Position numbers and translations under genes: made by a program. Source: Patescibacteria group bacterium (GTDB lineage Bacteria; Patescibacteriota; Patescibacteriia; Patescibacteriales; UBA12465). Taken from it: a stretch of DNA of 32,828 nt. Under the pieces are notes generated by a model. The model saw only the letters and a program-made list of their open reading frames with translations, was not told where the DNA came from and ran no database searches. How positions within the stretch are numbered: position 1 is the stretch's first letter; the number at the start of each line of letters is the position of its first letter. Below, piece after piece: positions 1,336-29,417 of this stretch. Location of the stretch: contig JAQUWT010000012.1 in assembly GCA_028692765.1 (NCBI GenBank), positions 1 through 32,828 on the forward strand, read 5' to 3'.

Positions 1336-2079
1336 ATGACAAAAAAAGCACTTGCTTATTATCGTGTATCAACCGATCTTCAAAAAGAAGAAGGAACAAT
1401 TGAAGTTCAAAAAATGAAGGTCAGAGAATTTGCTATCAAAAATGAATATCTGATTATTGAAGAATTTTCAGACGATGGGTTTAGTGGTGGCTTAAGTGAT
1501 AGGCCGGGCCTAAAAAATCTTCTTGATTTATTAAGCAACACCGAAGCGGAATATATAGTTATTTATAAACTAGATAGACTGGCGAGAGATTTATACATTC
1601 AAGAAGGACTAATAAAAGAGTTTAATAAAAATAATAAGCAATTAATTTCAGCCCTTGAACCAGATTTAGATAGTAGCGATCCTTTCAGAAAAGCTTTCAG
1701 ACAAATGCTTGGTGTATTCTCCGAATTTGAAAGAGCAATGATCGCTTTAAGACTTGAAGGTGGTAGAGAAAGAAAAGCTAAAAATGGTGGTTGGCATGGC
1801 GGTAAAATTTATGGCTATGACAACAACGAGGGTAATTTAGTTATTAACCAACAAGAAGCTAAGACGATTATACTGATATTCAGCCTAAGGAGAAAAAAGA
1901 AGTCTCTAAAAAACATTGCTAAGACTCTTGCAGAGTTAAATATTCCCACAAAAAGAGGAAACGAGAAATGGAGTCCATCAACTATAAAAAAGATTCTAAG
2001 TAATCCAATCTATAAAAAGGGCTTAATCTCTTATAACGGTGAAAGATATCAATCATCTTTTGAGATAATTTTAAATTAA
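1336..2079 (+). CDS. Serine recombinase (resolvase domain plus short Recombinase domain, no zinc ribbon)
   Basis: N-term ALAYYRVSTDLQ with catalytic Ser, YKLDRLARD motif, EFERAMIALR; C-term LNIPTKRGNEKWSPSTIKKILSNPIYKG. Confidence 0.9.
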   Translation: MTKKALAYYRVSTDLQKEEGTIEVQKMKVREFAIKNEYLIIEEFSDDGFSGGLSDRPGLKNLLDLLSNTEAEYIVIYKLDRLARDLYIQEGLIKEFNKNNKQLISALEPDLDSSDPFRKAFRQMLGVFSEFERAMIALRLEGGRERKAKNGGWHGGKIYGYDNNEGNLVINQQEAKTIILIFSLRRKKKSLKNIAKTLAELNIPTKRGNEKWSPSTIKKILSNPIYKKGLISYNGERYQSSFEIILN

Positions 2080-2095
2080 TCATTTTAATGATTAA
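2076..2095. repeat. 20-bp near-perfect palindrome TTAATCATT-TT-AATGATTAA between the two recombinase genes
   Basis: Read directly; overlaps the stop codon of the first recombinase and lies just before the start of the second. Confidence 0.7.
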
Positions 2096-2098
2096 ACT

Positions 2099-3691
2099 AT
2101 GAAGAAATTTTTTAGCTACATAAGAGTCAGCTCCAAAGAACAGGCTGATACAGGCGCATCATTAGAAGCTCAAAGAGAGTCAAATTTAAAATATGCTCAA
2201 GAGATAGGTGTTGAAATTGTAAAAGAATTTACAGAGGTGCAAAGTGCCGCCAAAAAAGGACGCGTTCAATTTAATTTAATGATTAAAGAGTTAAAAAGAA
2301 AAAGGGATATTAATGGCATTATTTTTCACGACGTTGATAGATCCACTAGACAATATTTTGATTTAGCAGAGCTAATGGAATTGAGTGAGAATGGCTACGA
2401 AATCTGTTACAGCAGAACCAGACTTACTCTTAATTCAACCGGGAGTAAAACGCTTGCCGGAGTTCAGGCAGTAATGGCTAAACAATTTATTGATAATCTA
2501 TCTCAAGAAACTAAAAAAGGAATGTATAAAAAAGCCGAACTAGGTTATTCAGTATTTGGCAAAGTCCTTTTGGGATATAAAAAATCTGGAGTGGGCACAA
2601 GAGAACTTGATCCCATGACCGCACCGTTAATCAAAAAATGTTTTGATTTATACGCCACCAATAAATACACGCTCAAAGAATTAGCTGACGAACTATATAA
2701 AAAGGGGCTAAGAACTCATAATAATAAACGACTTGAATACACAAAGATCAGCAGAATTTTAAATGATAAATACTATATGGGCATTATCGAGATAAAAGGC
2801 AGAGTTTATATCGGACGTCATCCTGCTATTGTTTCTGAAAAACTGTTTAATAAGGTCCAGAGCCTACTACAAAGAAGGTTTACGCCTCATACCAAGAGAA
2901 ATGAATATAAATTTCAACATCTCTTAAAATGTGGTTTATGTGGACAGACCTTAAAAGCAATGACAGCTAAACATAAATACCCGTATTACTACTGTCGCAA
3001 TAAAGATTGCCAAGCAAAAAGCTATTCGGAAAAAATGGTTGAGACCGTCTTGTCGGAGGAACTGGATAAAATAAAGTTTAATAAGCAAGAAACGGCCCAG
3101 CTCTTAAAAGTTGCCAAAGACCTAAAAAGGACTTATTTATTTGAGCTTGAAAAAATGGAACAAGCTCTAAGACTTAAAATAATCAACTGTAACGATAAAT
3201 TAAGCAGTTTAACAGACCATCTTTTAGACGGCACAATTGATAAAGATGTTTATGAGCAAAAAAGAGCCCAATTTACCCTTGAGAAAAAAGCTCTTGAATC
3301 TGAGATTAATGACTTTAAAAAGACAAACGAAAGCTCATTCAGTAAAATTGGAGAGCTTACAAAACTACTCTCTAATCCTGCTCACTCTTTTAAAGTGGCA
3401 AACCACGAAAATAAGGCTAACCTTATTAAGAAAATGATAAAAACTATCAAAATATTCCCGACAGGGGTCAATTTAGACTGGCAAACCACATTTTTACACT
3501 TATATAACAGAAAAAACGAGCTTTTAGACTCGTCTTTTCCAACTGGGGTGCCCATCGGGAATCGAACCCGAAATAACAGGACCACAACCTGCTGTGTTAC
3601 CACTACACCATGGGCACCATGCTTATTAAATCGACTTACTTATGAGAATCACAATGATGGGAACAGCAACTGCAATCGCAACCGAAGCTAA
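2099..3691 (+). CDS. Large serine recombinase/integrase with zinc beta-ribbon and coiled coil; its 3' end reads antisense through tRNA-His
   Basis: SYIRVSSKEQ resolvase motif, DVDRSTR, Recombinase domain, CGLCGQ...CRNKDC zinc ribbon; residues after about FPTGVPIGNRTRNN are antisense tRNA. Confidence 0.9.
   Translation: MKKFFSYIRVSSKEQADTGASLEAQRESNLKYAQEIGVEIVKEFTEVQSAAKKGRVQFNLMIKELKRKRDINGIIFHDVDRSTRQYFDLAELMELSENGYEICYSRTRLTLNSTGSKTLAGVQAVMAKQFIDNLSQETKKGMYKKAELGYSVFGKVLLGYKKSGVGTRELDPMTAPLIKKCFDLYATNKYTLKELADELYKKGLRTHNNKRLEYTKISRILNDKYYMGIIEIKGRVYIGRHPAIVSEKLFNKVQSLLQRRFTPHTKRNEYKFQHLLKCGLCGQTLKAMTAKHKYPYYYCRNKDCQAKSYSEKMVETVLSEELDKIKFNKQETAQLLKVAKDLKRTYLFELEKMEQALRLKIINCNDKLSSLTDHLLDGTIDKDVYEQKRAQFTLEKKALESEINDFKKTNESSFSKIGELTKLLSNPAHSFKVANHENKANLIKKMIKTIKIFPTGVNLDWQTTFLHLYNRKNELLDSSFPTGVPIGNRTRNNRTTTCCVTTTPWAPCLLNRLTYENHNDGNSNCNRNRS
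3544..3618 (-). tRNA. tRNA-His (GTG), encoded CCA, encoded G-1
   Basis: Reverse complement GGTGCCCATGGTGTAGTGGTAACACAGCAGGTTGTGGTCCTGTTATTTCGGGTTCGAATCCCGATGGGCACCCCA; anticodon loop TTGTGGT. Confidence 0.96.
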
Positions 3692-10194: not shown

Positions 10195-11574
10195 CTAATA
10201 GGCTGAGGTATTAAATAATTGTTTAATTGATTCCAACTCTTGTTTTAGTTTTTCGTTGTCGTTTTCTTTTATTTCATTAAGAATCTTGTTGTAGGCGTGC
10301 ATAGCGGTGGTATGGTCGCGTCCGCCCATTTCTTGGCCGATACTTGGATAGGAGGTGTTTAGTTCCTCTCTAATAAGAAATATAGCCGCTTGCCGGGGGC
10401 CGACTAATTCCTTGCGGCGGCTGTTGCCGGTAATATCTTTGACGCTAATTTCGTAGAAACGGGAAACAGCCTCTATTATTTCTTTCGGGGTTAATGACTT
10501 TGTTTGCAGGCTGGACACATAGTCGCTAAGAGCGTTTTTTACGCTTTTAAGGGTTGGTATGGAATTATTCAGCTGATGGATGACTACAATCTTATTAAGG
10601 GCCCCTTCTAGTTCACGAATATTATTTTGAACATTATTAGCTATATACATTAATACATCTTTATCTAAAGGAAAATTTTTTTCTAGTGATTTTTGTTCTA
10701 GAATAGCTATTTTGGTTTCAACATCAGGTTTACCCACGTCGGCAACCATTCCTGATTCGAAGCGGGAGATAAGACGCTTTTCAATGGCGGGGATAGATTT
10801 TGGCGGCCTGTCGGAGGTCATGACAATTTGCTTGTCGCTTTGCTGTAATTCATTGAAAGTATGAAAAAATTCTTCCTGGGTACCATCTTTTCCACCCATG
10901 AATTGGACGTCGTCCACCAGGAGAACATCGACGTTGCGGTACATGTTTTTAAAATCTTTAGCTTTTCCTGTTTGTACCGCTTGGATATAATTATTGGTAA
11001 ATTTTTCACTGGTTGTATAAAGTATCTTATCAGTTTTTTTAGCGGCTTCGTTGCCGATGGCTTGTAATAGATGGGTTTTTCCTAGACCAACTCCGCCGTA
11101 GATAAATAAAGGGTTGTAAGCCTTTCCTAAATTATTAACTACAGCTCGGCAGGCGGCGTGGGCCAGTTCATTTCCCCGCCCAACCACAAAATTGTCAAAA
11201 ATATATTTTGGGTTTAATCCGAATCGATTTACATTTTGTCCGACGTGGTTTTCTTTAATTTGATTCTGTTCTTTTGGTGTTATTTTTACGCTCTCGGGAA
11301 CGATAGTGTTTTCTTGTTGGCCGTGGCGCAATTCTATTTTATAAATAATCTCGTTTAATTTTTGTTTGGTGACATTTTCAAGAGAGCCGACAATATTGCG
11401 ATGGTATTTTTCTTCTAACCATTTTTTTACAAAAGCGTTAGGTACGCAGATAATAGCCCGTCCGTTTTCAAAAGAAGACAGAAAAGTGTCTTTAAACCAG
11501 GTAACAAAATTAACCCGGGAAAGATTTATTTCTAATTCACCCAAGGTTGCTTGCCAAATTTGATCATTATTCAT
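10195..11574 (-). CDS. dnaA: Chromosomal replication initiator DnaA (start set at MNNDQIWQATL; ORF extends to 11622)
   Basis: NPLFIYGGVGLGKTHLLQAIGN Walker A, LLVDDVQFMGGK, RLISRFESG, C-terminal GGRDHTTAMHAYNKI DnaA-box binding signature. Confidence 0.98.
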   Translation of the reverse strand: MNNDQIWQATLGELEINLSRVNFVTWFKDTFLSSFENGRAIICVPNAFVKKWLEEKYHRNIVGSLENVTKQKLNEIIYKIELRHGQQENTIVPESVKITPKEQNQIKENHVGQNVNRFGLNPKYIFDNFVVGRGNELAHAACRAVVNNLGKAYNPLFIYGGVGLGKTHLLQAIGNEAAKKTDKILYTTSEKFTNNYIQAVQTGKAKDFKNMYRNVDVLLVDDVQFMGGKDGTQEEFFHTFNELQQSDKQIVMTSDRPPKSIPAIEKRLISRFESGMVADVGKPDVETKIAILEQKSLEKNFPLDKDVLMYIANNVQNNIRELEGALNKIVVIHQLNNSIPTLKSVKNALSDYVSSLQTKSLTPKEIIEAVSRFYEISVKDITGNSRRKELVGPRQAAIFLIREELNTSYPSIGQEMGGRDHTTAMHAYNKILNEIKENDNEKLKQELESIKQLFNTSAY

Positions 11575-11634
11575 AAAAACGGATAATATAACTATATTAT
11601 AGGGGATAAAATCCATAGCCACAAGGACAAACTA

Positions 11635-11739: not shown

Positions 11740-11877
11740 ATGCCAAAAAGAACTTACCAACCGAACAAGAAAAGAGCTCAGAAAAAACATGGATTTTTAG
11801 AAAGAATGAGCACAAAAGACGGGCGCGATGTTTTAAAACGTCGCCGTGATCGCGGTCGCGCCGTTTTGTCTAAATAA
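11740..11877 (+). CDS. rpmH: 50S ribosomal protein L34 (not in ORF track)
   Basis: [45 protein letters not shown]. Confidence 0.98.
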
Positions 11878-14658: not shown

Positions 14659-14733
14659 GCCCTTGTAGTTTAATGGATAAAACGAGAATCTCCTAAGTTC
14701 TAAATCCAGGTTCGATTCCTGGCGAGGGCACCA
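14659..14733 (+). tRNA. tRNA-Arg (CCT), encoded CCA
   Basis: GCCCTTGTAGTTTAATGGATAAAACGAGAATCTCCTAAGTTCTAAATCCAGGTTCGATTCCTGGCGAGGGCACCA; anticodon loop CTCCTAA. Confidence 0.94.
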
Positions 14734-14810: not shown

Positions 14811-14826
14811 TGTTCTACAAAGAACA
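14811..14826. repeat. parS-like palindrome copy 1 (TGTTCTACAAAGAACA)
   Basis: 16-bp TGTTC-N6-GAACA palindrome, exact match to copies 2 and 5. Confidence 0.85.
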
Positions 14827-14834
14827 ATTATATT

Positions 14835-14911
14835 GGGCCATTAGCTCAGTTGGCTAGAGCGCTTCCATGGCATGGAAGAGGTCAAGGGTTCAAGTCCCTT
14901 ATGGTCCACCA
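14835..14911 (+). tRNA. tRNA-Ala (GGC), encoded CCA
   Basis: GGGCCATTAGCTCAGTTGGCTAGAGCGCTTCCATGGCATGGAAGAGGTCAAGGGTTCAAGTCCCTTATGGTCCACCA; anticodon loop ATGGCAT. Confidence 0.96.
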
Positions 14912-14918
14912 AAAAATA

Positions 14919-14942
14919 AAGCCGGGTTAATCCGGTTTTTTG
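14919..14942 (+). terminator. Probable intrinsic terminator after tRNA-Ala
   Basis: AAGCCGG GTTAAT CCGGTTTTTT. Confidence 0.6.
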
Positions 14943-14966
14943 TTTATATAAAATATATAATTAAAT

Positions 14967-14982
14967 TGTTCTACAAAGAACA
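14967..14982. repeat. parS-like palindrome copy 2 (TGTTCTACAAAGAACA)
   Basis: Identical to copy 1; extended stem AATTGTTCT ACAA AGAACAATT. Confidence 0.85.
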
Positions 14983-15052
14983 ATTAATGGCTTACTTATT
15001 TTTACTTTAACCATCTACATATTATATTTTTATATTAAATAATATAAAATGA

Positions 15053-15068
15053 TGTTCTTTGTGGAACA
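15053..15068. repeat. parS-like palindrome copy 3 (TGTTCTTTGTGGAACA; reverse complement TGTTCCACAAAGAACA)
   Basis: Same TGTTC-N6-GAACA frame, inverted orientation. Confidence 0.8.
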
Positions 15069-15254
15069 TTGTAGGATGATTGCAAAAAAGTAAGAAAATT
15101 AATGCCTTTAGCCTTTGAGTTGTGATAGAATTTTTAGAAATTATTTTTAATGATTTTTTTAGTTAGATTAAGATTGAGTTATAAAATATGGAGGCAATTA
15201 AAATTTATAAATTATTATTAATTTTTAGATATTATTTTTATTTTATAAAAAATA

Positions 15255-15270
15255 TGTTCTTCGTAGAACA
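15255..15270. repeat. parS-like palindrome copy 4 (TGTTCTTCGTAGAACA; reverse complement TGTTCTACGAAGAACA)
   Basis: Same frame, inverted orientation. Confidence 0.8.
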
Positions 15271-15331
15271 TTTATATATTTTTATTTTAACAAGAAGTTG
15301 AAAATTAAATAATTTTTTATAGTATGTTAAT

Positions 15332-15347
15332 TGTTCTACAAAGAACA
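15332..15347. repeat. parS-like palindrome copy 5 (TGTTCTACAAAGAACA)
   Basis: Identical to copies 1 and 2, including 21-nt TTGTTCTACAAAGAACAATTA. Confidence 0.85.
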
Positions 15348-15484: not shown

Positions 15485-16417
15485 ATGTACGACACCATTA
15501 TTATTGGCCAGGGTCCGGCTGGCATTACTGCAGGTATTTATGCCGCCCGCAGAGAAATGAAGACTTTAATTTTAGGAAAAGAGCCTGGAGGGCAAATTAT
15601 TTGGGCGGGTGAGATTGAAAATTATCCCGGTTTTACCAGTATTAGTAATTTTGATTTGATTTCTAGATTTAATGAGCACGCTTTAGCTTCTGGAGCGGAA
15701 ATAAAGAGCGCTGAAGTTAAGCGAGTGGAAAAACAGGCTGATGGTAATTTTTTAATTTCTACCGATCGTGATAAGTATGAGGCTAAAACCGTAATTATCG
15801 CTATGGGTCTATCCCCCCGCCGCCTTGCCGTTCCCGGAGAGATTGAATTTAGCGGCAAGGGGGTTTCTTACTGTGCTAATTGTGACGGTCCATTGTATAA
15901 AGGCAAGACCGTGGCGGTTATTGGTAGTGGTAATTCCGCTTTTGATGCGGCCGAGGTGCTTTCCAAAATTGCTGCTAAAGTGTATCTCATTATCCGTAGC
16001 GCTACTTTTAAAGCTTTTGATTCTTTAGTTGAGGAGGTAAAAAGCCGCAATAATATTGAAATAATTACCGGCGCTCAAACTCGTGAGATTAAGGGCGGCG
16101 ATAAAGTTGAATCTCTGGTCTATCAAAATGACTCCGGTCAGGAAATATCTTTGCCTTTGGACGGTGTTTTTGTAGAAATAGGCCGTATTGCCAGTACTGA
16201 CTTAGTGGCTGACTTGGTTAATCGCGATGAAAGGTCGCAAATATTAGTTGATGATAAATATGCTACCCGCACTCCCGGATTATTTGCCGCCGGCGACGTT
16301 GTGGCTAGCGAATTTAAGCAGATTACCATTGCCATGGGTCAGGCCACTTCAGCGGCCCTTTACGCTTATCAGTATATACAAGGAGCGGGAGCACCTAAAA
16401 TTACCACTTCGAAATAA
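15485..16417 (+). CDS. trxB: Thioredoxin-disulfide reductase
   Basis: IIGQGPAGITAGIYAARR, SYCANCDGPLYKGK (CxxC active site), GSGNSAFDAAEVL, LFAAGDVVASEFKQITIAMGQ. Confidence 0.95.
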   Translation: MYDTIIIGQGPAGITAGIYAARREMKTLILGKEPGGQIIWAGEIENYPGFTSISNFDLISRFNEHALASGAEIKSAEVKRVEKQADGNFLISTDRDKYEAKTVIIAMGLSPRRLAVPGEIEFSGKGVSYCANCDGPLYKGKTVAVIGSGNSAFDAAEVLSKIAAKVYLIIRSATFKAFDSLVEEVKSRNNIEIITGAQTREIKGGDKVESLVYQNDSGQEISLPLDGVFVEIGRIASTDLVADLVNRDERSQILVDDKYATRTPGLFAAGDVVASEFKQITIAMGQATSAALYAYQYIQGAGAPKITTSK

Positions 16418-26860: not shown

Positions 26861-27286
26861 CTAACCTACTGGTGGTTGTGATCCACCCCCACCCCCGCCA
26901 GTAAAGGGTAGTTGGTTGAAGACAAAATAAGTAATGGCGTAGGCCATAAGGACGATGACTAAGCCGATAATTGCTCGTTTAATCATGTCTTGAGCCTTTT
27001 TAATTGATTCTTCATTGCCGGAGGCAGTCATCCAGCGGTAGCCGGCAAAGACGATAATGATTAAAAAAATGATACCGAGTAAACTCAGGGCCCCTTGGAT
27101 AACCACAGCAATAATTTGACCTAAAGTAAAATGATTTAATCCAGTTTGCCCCAACATTACCTGAGTCGGTCCGTCTACGGTTTCAGCTATGCTCTTGGTC
27201 GCGGTGCTTGTTTGGGCTAATACCGCCGAAATTGGCAGAATAATGGCTAAGGCGGCGGTTAATAAGCTTATTTTAATTTTTTTCAT
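26861..27286 (-). CDS. T4SS-pilin-like (TrbC/VirB2-type) small membrane protein, paralog 1, with Gly-rich C-terminus
   Basis: Signal peptide; two TMs; FAGYRWMTASGNEESIKKAQDMIKRAIIGLVIVLMAYAITYFVF; GGGGGG tail. Confidence 0.85.
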   Translation of the reverse strand: MKKIKISLLTAALAIILPISAVLAQTSTATKSIAETVDGPTQVMLGQTGLNHFTLGQIIAVVIQGALSLLGIIFLIIIVFAGYRWMTASGNEESIKKAQDMIKRAIIGLVIVLMAYAITYFVFNQLPFTGGGGGGSQPPVG

Positions 27287-27287
27287 A

Positions 27288-27713
27288 TTATAGAATTTCA
27301 ATGACATTTACTAAAATAAAATTCCAAATAGCCCAGGAGCCGAGCACTATCACTAAGCCGATAATTGCCCGTTTGATAGTATCTTTCGCTTCTTCAATCC
27401 TCTGTTCATTGCCGGAGGCGGTCATCCAATTATAGCCGGCTAAGACCATCAGGATGATAAAAATAACGCCGAGCAAGCTGAGAGCTCCGTTTATTACTAG
27501 GCCGAGTATAGTGGGTAGGGAATTTTCATTGGCTTTATTATATGGACCGCTTTCTCCGGTAGCAATGTTTTCCAAAATTTTAATCGGATTGGCGGATGAG
27601 CCGGTATTAACCGAACCGTTATTGGCATCTTGGGCAAATACGAAATAAGGCAAGGTCATAATAGCGGTGAGAAGCAGTAAGGTAAAAATTGGTTTTAAAG
27701 ATTTTAATTTCAT
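27288..27713 (-). CDS. T4SS-pilin-like paralog 2
   Basis: Signal peptide; LAGYNWMTASGNEQRIEEAKDTIKRAIIGLVIVLGSWAIWNFIL. Confidence 0.85.
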   Translation of the reverse strand: MKLKSLKPIFTLLLLTAIMTLPYFVFAQDANNGSVNTGSSANPIKILENIATGESGPYNKANENSLPTILGLVINGALSLLGVIFIILMVLAGYNWMTASGNEQRIEEAKDTIKRAIIGLVIVLGSWAIWNFILVNVIEIL

Positions 27714-27720
27714 ACGGGGT

Positions 27721-28131
27721 TTAGATAAAGAATTTGATTATGAAATAAGTTAGGGCGTAGGCGCCTAAAATAATAACTAAACCAATAATGTTTTGCGTGA
27801 TGATTGATTTAGCTTTTTTAGTCTGCTCTTCGTTACCGCGGGCAGTCAAATAGAGATAGCCGCCGTAAATAGTAAAAAGAATAAAGATAATGCCGAGCAA
27901 GGAAAATAATCCGGTTATTATTCTGCCCGCCACCGTTTCTAAAACGATGCTATTATTATAACCAGCTCCGCCAGCACCAGATACAATCCCTAAAGCGCTG
28001 CTGCTCCCCGTATCAAAAGCTGTTTTTATATTAGCATTAGTCTGCCCCTGGGCTGAGGCCGCCAATATTCCAGTGGATAGGAATAAGGCTAGGGCAACTA
28101 TAGTAGTGTTGATTGTCTGCTTAGTCGTCAT
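27721..28131 (-). CDS. T4SS-pilin-like paralog 3
   Basis: Signal peptide; YGGYLYLTARGNEEQTKKAKSIITQNIIGLVIILGAYALTYFII. Confidence 0.85.
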   Translation of the reverse strand: MTTKQTINTTIVALALFLSTGILAASAQGQTNANIKTAFDTGSSSALGIVSGAGGAGYNNSIVLETVAGRIITGLFSLLGIIFILFTIYGGYLYLTARGNEEQTKKAKSIITQNIIGLVIILGAYALTYFIIKFFI

Positions 28132-28135
28132 GTCT

Positions 28136-28531
28136 TTATTGAATTAAAGAGCCGGTAGTCGCCTTTAAAACAAAATAACTGATAGCATAAGCGGCTAGGA
28201 CAATAATAATGCCGATGATTGATTCTGTCAGTATTTCTTTAGCTTTGCTGACTTTTTCTTCGTTACCTTGGGCGGTCATCCAAACAATGCCGGCATAAAT
28301 GGCAAAACCTAAAAATACGACGCCTACTAAGGACAGAATCACGGTGATTATTTGAGCAATATAACCATTGACCGAGGTGTCAGTGGTTGTATAGCCGGCA
28401 TTACTACCAGTGTTGCTTAAGCCGCTATTTTGAGAAAAATCATAACTTCCGTTTTGAGCCAAAGCTAAATTAAAAATGCCTAAAGATAAAATTAAGATGA
28501 AAATCAAAGAGATTAAGCGTTTTATTTTCAT
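28136..28531 (-). CDS. T4SS-pilin-like paralog 4
   Basis: Signal peptide; YAGIVWMTAQGNEEKVSKAKEILTESIIGIIIVLAAYAISYFVL. Confidence 0.85.
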   Translation of the reverse strand: MKIKRLISLIFILILSLGIFNLALAQNGSYDFSQNSGLSNTGSNAGYTTTDTSVNGYIAQIITVILSLVGVVFLGFAIYAGIVWMTAQGNEEKVSKAKEILTESIIGIIIVLAAYAISYFVLKATTGSLIQ

Positions 28532-28532
28532 A

Positions 28533-28925
28533 TTAAGTTAATCTATCGCCCACAAAGGCGGTAATGGCATAAGCGGCCATCACAATTACTAAGCCGATAA
28601 CTGCATTAATCATTAAATCTTTAGCTTTATTGACTTTTTCTTGATTACCAGAAGCGGTCATCCAGGTCAGGCCAGCAAAAATCATTAAAATTAAGAAAAT
28701 TACGCCGACAAAAGATAGGACCAGTCCTATAATAGAACCTAGGCGCGTGCTAAGAAAATTACTGTCAGGACTAGCTGCCTGGGCTTTATAAGCATCGACT
28801 ACATTGGCGCTTTGGCTAAGGCCGTAATCATCGGCTGAGACTGGCAAGATACTAAAAAAACCGGCGATTATAAAGCTGGTTATTAAGAATGAAAATACGC
28901 TTTTAGTGATTTGAGCGCGTGACAT
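28533..28925 (-). CDS. T4SS-pilin-like paralog 5
   Basis: FAGLTWMTASGNQEKVNKAKDLMINAVIGLVIVMAAYAITAFV. Confidence 0.85.
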   Translation of the reverse strand: MSRAQITKSVFSFLITSFIIAGFFSILPVSADDYGLSQSANVVDAYKAQAASPDSNFLSTRLGSIIGLVLSFVGVIFLILMIFAGLTWMTASGNQEKVNKAKDLMINAVIGLVIVMAAYAITAFVGDRLT

Positions 28926-28950
28926 ATATTTATTTATTTTTTATTTCACT

Positions 28951-29007
28951 GCTCTGGACGCCAATAATTTGCCGTTCAGAGCGGTGGCCCCCTTGTTAAA
29001 GAGGGCC
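28951..29007 (-). other. Two adjacent imperfect hairpins in the paralog 6 / paralog 5 spacer
   Basis: gctctggacgccaataatttgccgttcagagc (28951-28982) and ggcccccttgttaaagagggcc (28986-29007). Confidence 0.7.
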
Positions 29008-29033
29008 TTTTCCAAAATCGATTCTAGAAATTA

Positions 29034-29417
29034 CTAGTTAGTAGCGGTGATTAAGCGTCCTAAGATGAAGTTGGCAATACCCCAAGCTGATAAGACGATG
29101 ACTAAACCGACAACACCGGCGCCCATTAATTTCTTGGCTTCGCCGACTTTATCTTCGTTGCCACCGGCGGTCATCCACTTGAAGCCTCCCAGTAAGATGA
29201 TGACGACAGCGATGATGCCCAAGAAAAGCATAGCGACGTTAATCAATCTAGCAACAGTGGTTCTCGGGTCGGTGTTACCCAAACCGTTATCACCGAAACC
29301 TTCTTCGATTTCGTTCATACCGACATCAAGGTTGCTTTGCGCCATTGTGACTATCGGCAGGGCCAATAATGACAACATTGCAAACACTACTAAATTCTTT
29401 AAGATTTTTTTACTCAT
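29034..29417 (-). CDS. T4SS-pilin-like paralog 6 (promoter-proximal)
   Basis: LGGFKWMTAGGNEDKVGEAKKLMGAGVVGLVIVLSAWGIANFIL; strong SD AGAAGGGTGGTGA upstream. Confidence 0.88.
   Translation of the reverse strand: MSKKILKNLVVFAMLSLLALPIVTMAQSNLDVGMNEIEEGFGDNGLGNTDPRTTVARLINVAMLFLGIIAVVIILLGGFKWMTAGGNEDKVGEAKKLMGAGVVGLVIVLSAWGIANFILGRLITATN

Follow-up and report, generated by a model that had tools for sequence, protein, structure and literature searches.

Few regulatory DNA sites of bacteria are as well conserved as parS, which is normally near-invariant. The locus described here raises the question whether palindromes that share the arms of parS, but not its centre, could serve as the centromere of a bacterial chromosome, and whether the cognate ParB might have changed along with them. 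The window, i.e., the whole stretch of DNA that was analyzed, comprises 32,828 nt of a Patescibacteria group bacterium (GCA_028692765.1, contig JAQUWT010000012.1, positions 1-32,828 of the forward strand) and belongs to a genome of 879,919 bases in 21 contigs that is 99.3% complete. Judged by ParB, the closest named relatives are Parcubacteria/Candidatus Falkowbacteria assemblies (75-88% identity), and the genome is that of a Falkowbacteria-related lineage (Patescibacteria). Five palindromes in the window are, with high probability, the predicted parS sites of this chromosome, i.e., a bacterial centromere, with a diversified centre. This reading is based on the observations that the sites are unique in the genome, lie close to the origin, and are kept or turning over in relatives, and that the genome encodes one ParB and a ParA while lacking canonical parS.

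Three of the palindromes, sites 1, 2 and 5, share the sequence TGTTCTACAAAGAACA on the forward strand and are located at 14811..14826, 8 bp upstream of a tRNA-Ala gene, at 14967..14982, with AATT on either side, and at 15332..15347, 137 bp upstream of the start of a trxB-like gene. The other two lie on the reverse strand: site 3, TGTTCCACAAAGAACA (15053..15068), has the exact canonical half-site TGTTCCAC as its left half, and site 4, TGTTCTACGAAGAACA (15255..15270), has a central CG as in the canonical sequence. All five fall within 537 bp with start-to-start spacings of 156, 86, 202, and 77 bp, and each is a 16-bp inverted repeat in which the TGTTC/GAACA arms are exact. The canonical chromosomal parS is TGTTYCACGTGRAACA, e.g., TGTTCCACGTGGAACA in Pseudomonas and TGTTCCACGTGGAACG in Myxococcus (PMC7022226). 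Identity to TGTTCCACGTGGAACA amounts to 12/16 for copies 1, 2, and 5 and to 13/16 for copies 3 and 4. A preliminary description of this DNA had reported the five 16-bp palindromes, the 12-13 identities per copy and the exact half-site in copy 3, and its positions and sequences were reproduced exactly. What sets the sites apart is their centre, which is ACAA/ACGA instead of the canonical CAC-GTG: the CACGTG core is absent from all five copies, and the best of them is 3 mismatches away from TGTTYCACGTGRAACA. When up to 3 mismatches were allowed, the window contained nine matches versus 0.70 expected, with a maximum of 4 in 100 shuffles.

On the scale of the whole genome (~880 kb), TGTTCYNNNRRGAACA has five matches, all of them in the cluster, and the reversed-pattern control has none. 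With 3 mismatches allowed, every match outside the cluster is at the three-mismatch noise level, and none is closer. The expectation that copies would concentrate near oriC is thus borne out, as the motif is confined to one origin-proximal cluster and is not randomly distributed. No canonical parS was detected in the genome, where the closest sequences to TGTTYCACGTGRAACA, copies 3 and 4 among them, have 3 mismatches. The genome does encode a chromosomal-type ParB and a ParA: ParB_N and HTH_ParB yield one hit each, which corresponds to the single ParB-family gene found (contig C7, L006:1381-2256), and parA (L006:27-761) is located two genes upstream in the ORF order parA, rdgB-type NTP pyrophosphatase, parB. 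As described before, parA and parB are absent from the window genes that were scanned, the sole ParB hit being on another contig. The ParB protein aligns to solved Spo0J and ParB chains (E down to 6e-51) and features an N-terminal LGRGLGSLIP segment, the helix-turn-helix (HTH) stretch GKARSSVANTLRLLDLP, and a GERRWRS motif; the arginine-rich GERRxR motif mediates CTP binding (PMC7333895). In two one-contig assemblies of the family, parB is located far from dnaA (300-420 kb; G031:C1: parB at 288798 and dnaA at 710967 in a contig of 976925 bp; G015:C1: parB at 300946 and dnaA near 1 in 717294 bp). In these assemblies, parB thus lies a long way around the chromosome from the parS-like sites, unlike the usual arrangement, in which parAB is origin-proximal.

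The origin is marked by dnaA (10195..11622, reverse strand; TIGR00362, E=3.5e-153). Next to it lies rpmH (ribosomal protein L34; about 11740..11877, forward strand, read from the translation), which is followed by rnpA (11892), yidD (12233), and yidC (12502); the genes to the left of the sites are hence yidC, yidD, rnpA, rpmH, dnaA, and dnaN. The five copies are located 3.2-3.7 kb from dnaA, and the coordinates of dnaA and rpmH confirm the previously given distance of about 3 kb to the border between these genes. Perfect DnaA boxes (TTATNCACA), sought in order to place oriC, number zero in the window, and the GC skew indicates a turning point only roughly, at ~10-15 kb of the window. Two genes that keep their synteny in relatives frame the cluster: tRNA-Arg (CCT; 14659..14733, forward strand) as the left landmark, and, on the right, the trxB-like gene (thioredoxin-disulfide reductase-like; 15485..16417, forward strand; TIGR01292, E=1e-94), which scores 316.7 bits, under the 343.45-bit cut-off of that model. 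The intergenic DNA around the sites has 17% GC (tRNA-Ala excluded), in line with the AT-rich, non-coding stretch described earlier, but the stretch is only partly non-coding, because a tRNA-Ala gene (GGC; 14835..14911, forward strand), absent from that description, is located between copies 1 and 2. This tRNA gene is a landmark of the predicted centromere locus in the family.

Such sites are present in five of seven same-genus genomes and in the wider family. The five genomes (G001, G002, G004, G005, and G006) contain 6-8 matches of TGTTCYNNNNRGAACA each, with none in the control, grouped in a single block that is bounded by tRNA-Arg and trxB and lies some 3-5 kb from dnaA; some of the six matches in G001 may be duplicates, because its block is split across two contig ends. 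G003 and G007, the assemblies of which are without a full dnaA gene, yielded no sites. In G001, the ortholog of site 1 is TGTTCTACGTAGAACA, and that of site 2 is TGTTCTTTGTAGAACA in reverse orientation, i.e., with the asymmetric centre flipped compared to the window. In genera g1, g9, g10, and g4, sites occupy the corresponding interval, from tRNA-Arg/tRNA-Ala to trxB; several g4 genomes have this entire block, sites included, at a distance of about 30-37 kb from dnaA. Genera g5 and g8 differ in that their sites are flanked by yidC and a lipid-kinase-like gene (dgk) and are remote from tRNA-Ala and trxB, and G011, G014, G019, and G024 harbor one copy inside an intact dgk ORF. The sites are therefore separable from any one neighbour gene and its transcript, and what relatives conserve is the DNA sites themselves, irrespective of the adjacent genes.

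Toward the periphery of this distribution, a de novo search for repeated palindromes revealed only one or two weaker sites beside tRNA-Ala in g6, g7, and g11 (e.g., AGTTCTACAAAGAACA in G013 and AGTTCCTTAAGGAACA in G017), and none were found for g2, g3, and part of the g4 genomes, in which assembly and analysis covered the locus in some cases only. Another family of the same order has sites near the same tRNA pair, namely TGTTCCACGAGGAACA in three tandem copies in G095 and TGTTCTACATAGAACA in G079, and the distant class genomes G137 and G140 contain single matches of the same sequence type. A further distant class genome, G439, has two TGTTCCACAAAGAACA copies (L322, 7933 and 8204), which are identical to copy 3 and adjoin, at the end of a contig, tRNA-Arg(CCT) and tRNA-Ala(CGC). 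These are perhaps an independent or ancient occurrence; since G439 has the copy-3 sequence, the altered centre may be old or have more than one origin.

Across the family, 74 sites from 24 genomes (148 half-sites; positions 6-8 were left free in the search) define the half-site TGTTC-Y-(A/T/G)-Y, with the caveat that these sites have a common descent and do not provide independent counts. Position 5 is C, and position 6 is C or T, in 148/148 half-sites; position 7 is A in 56, T in 67, G in 23, and C in 2 (A/T/G in 146/148); position 8 is always a pyrimidine (C in 100, T in 48). The canonical half TGTTCCAC conforms to this pattern. In the 22 family genomes with at least 85% completeness, TGTTCYDYRHRGAACA has 60 matches versus none in the control. 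Near-canonical forms do occur in the family (TGTTCTACGTAGAACA three times in G021, TGTTCTACGTGGAACA in G028), and canonical TGTTYCACGTGRAACA is present in 2/25 sampled order-mates outside the family. The variant sites appear to replace canonical parS, because TGTTYCACGTGRAACA is found in 157/382 class genomes, but in 0/22 of the family.

Inverted repeats next to tRNA genes could also act at the RNA level, as hairpins at which transcripts from the tRNA or trxB region end or are processed. All five sites fold into hairpins of 7-11 bp (z about -3 to -6), as would any such palindrome; however, none of the five is called a terminator, and the terminator-like hairpin that follows tRNA-Ala (14918-14939) has a different sequence. 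Throughout the family, the four bases that would form the loop are under constraint, and pairing is not kept: within the genus, a C at position 6 is always opposite A, not G, at position 11 (7/7 such sites). The two half-sites thus vary separately, as predicted for degenerate half-site recognition by a dimer and not for an RNA stem. The flipped centre of the orthologous G001 site and the location of sites inside coding sequence in relatives likewise argue against hairpins, which we regard as extremely improbable. Very unlikely, too, is a role as operators of a transcription factor, e.g., a redox or stress regulator, controlling trxB or the tRNA genes. In the window genome, the sites do flank tRNA-Ala and lie at least 137 bp upstream of trxB, and promoter-like matches in the stretch are hardly above those in shuffles (14 vs 9.4). 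Yet no further copies exist elsewhere in the genome, five to eight sites spread over 0.5-1 kb with changing spacing are unlike an operator, and the g5/g8 sites occur between yidC and dgk, with one copy inside the dgk coding sequence in four genomes. Different flanking genes, partly intragenic sites, and the lack of compensatory pairing are hence not compatible with either explanation.

Alternatively, the sites could be bound not by the segregation ParB but by another member of the ParB family, e.g., a Noc-like protein. The best NCBIfam bit score of the ParB is indeed to the Noc model, but at 231.6 versus a cut-off of 315, and the genome yielded a single gene of the ParB family. R173 is the parS-type residue, while Q173, K179, K184, and R201 confer Noc specificity (PMC7383237). 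The protein is not Noc-type because it has R173, and it carries T179, D184, and A201 at the remaining positions; moreover, G1 of the parS half-site is retained in the sites. Taken together, a Noc-type target is exceedingly unlikely. With ParB present and the motif clustered, the parS-like centromere proposed in the preliminary description is therefore the supported reading.

In known ParABS systems, parS nucleates ParB clamps with bound CTP; these spread across the region of the origin, and ParA moves them (PMC7333895, PMC7022226). From this biology we infer ParB binding, clamp loading, and segregation at the sites described here. As a dimer, the one ParB of the genome would bind each 16-bp site, with one HTH for every half-site of 8 bp; it would then form a closed, CTP-dependent clamp and slide onto the neighbouring origin DNA, and ParA would move ParB, such that newly copied origins separate. 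Within the family, the TGTTC/GAACA arms have been retained, and it is the centre of the half-site that has drifted, with Y-(A/T/G)-Y in place of the canonical C-A-C.

Whether such drift involved a change in ParB was addressed by comparing specificity residues. G201, which is located near half-site base 6, has been described as absolutely conserved in ParB (PMC7383237). The ParB of this genome has A201 and K204, both of which differ from model ParBs, and family ParBs have A201 in 32/37, K204 in 37/37, and Y205 in 32/37 cases, with K171/R173/N178 kept in all 37. Among 109 class ParBs from genomes with known canonical-parS status (58 with, 51 without), K204 is common where canonical parS is present, and residue 201 is A, S, or T in 15/109, 12 of which belong to the 58 genomes with canonical parS. 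These exceptions contrast with the absolute conservation of G201 stated in PMC7383237. The combination G201+R204 occurs in 16/58 genomes with and in 20/51 without canonical parS, i.e., the expected direction is absent, and residues 201/204 were rejected as the cause of a changed specificity. They do not explain the altered centre, since both occur together with canonical parS. Y205 is found in 3/109 class ParBs, all from order-mates without canonical parS and none from canonical genomes, an association that is confounded by descent.

The ParB variant with changed specificity that had been proposed earlier is thus a hypothesis: residues 201/204 do differ from model ParBs, but relatives that have canonical parS share them. 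A cognate ParB with changed or relaxed specificity is plausible, and so is an ordinary ParB that tolerates such sites; both readings stand. A more specific proposal, which we judge to be close to, but short of, evenly balanced, is that ParB and parS co-evolved off the CACGTG core. The outer TGTTC would still be read, with R173 kept, and helix alpha-6 (residues 196-207, including A201/K204/Y205) would read a changed or relaxed centre, such that this ParB might bind canonical sites no better than its own, to which ParBs of other bacteria might bind poorly. If so, the genera would represent a natural series from TGTTCTACGTAGAACA via TGTTCTACAAAGAACA to TGTTCCTTAAGGAACA. A family of reduced-genome bacteria in which the centre varies by genus and the ParB sequences are at hand is a natural experiment that may show how a centromere can change along with the protein that binds it without loss of segregation.

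The sites resemble canonical parS in being 16-bp palindromes with TGTTC/GAACA arms in several origin-proximal copies, accompanied by one ParB and a ParA. They differ in the centre (ACAA/ACGA here, Y-(A/T/G)-Y family-wide), in the often asymmetric copies, and in having at least 3 mismatches. Divergent parS sites are known from chromosome I of Deinococcus radiodurans (NGTTTcgcGtgaAACN), from Streptomyces coelicolor (tGTTTCACCTGAAACa), and from the secondary chromosomes of Vibrio and Burkholderia (PMC7022226). These demonstrate that parS can depart from its usual form, whether at its centre or on a secondary replicon, but their changes are other ones, whereas here the centres are graded across a whole reduced-genome family and are located on the primary chromosome. 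The Noc-binding site (NBS) differs from parS at half-site bases 1 and 6, with A at 1 and C at 6 (PMC7383237). Like the NBS, the present sites are ParB-family sites a few bases away from parS; unlike it, family sites keep G at base 1 and have C at base 6 in 2/148 half-sites only. Among the papers searched, none joins parS and ParB with Patescibacteria, and a single broad review does so with the Candidate Phyla Radiation. Overall, the window contains a predicted parS cluster with a diversified centre on a primary chromosome, which is moderately surprising.

Two other regions of the window deserve mention. At 1336-3691 (forward strand), two adjacent genes encode large, CcrB/XisF-like serine recombinases, and the 3′ end of the second overlaps tRNA-His (3544-3617) on the opposite strand, which suggests a mobile element integrated at tRNA-His. 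At 26861-29417 (reverse strand), six consecutive small ORFs of similar size (127-148 aa) adjoin two larger ORFs (29517 and 31096) on the other strand; the six might be pilin-like genes.
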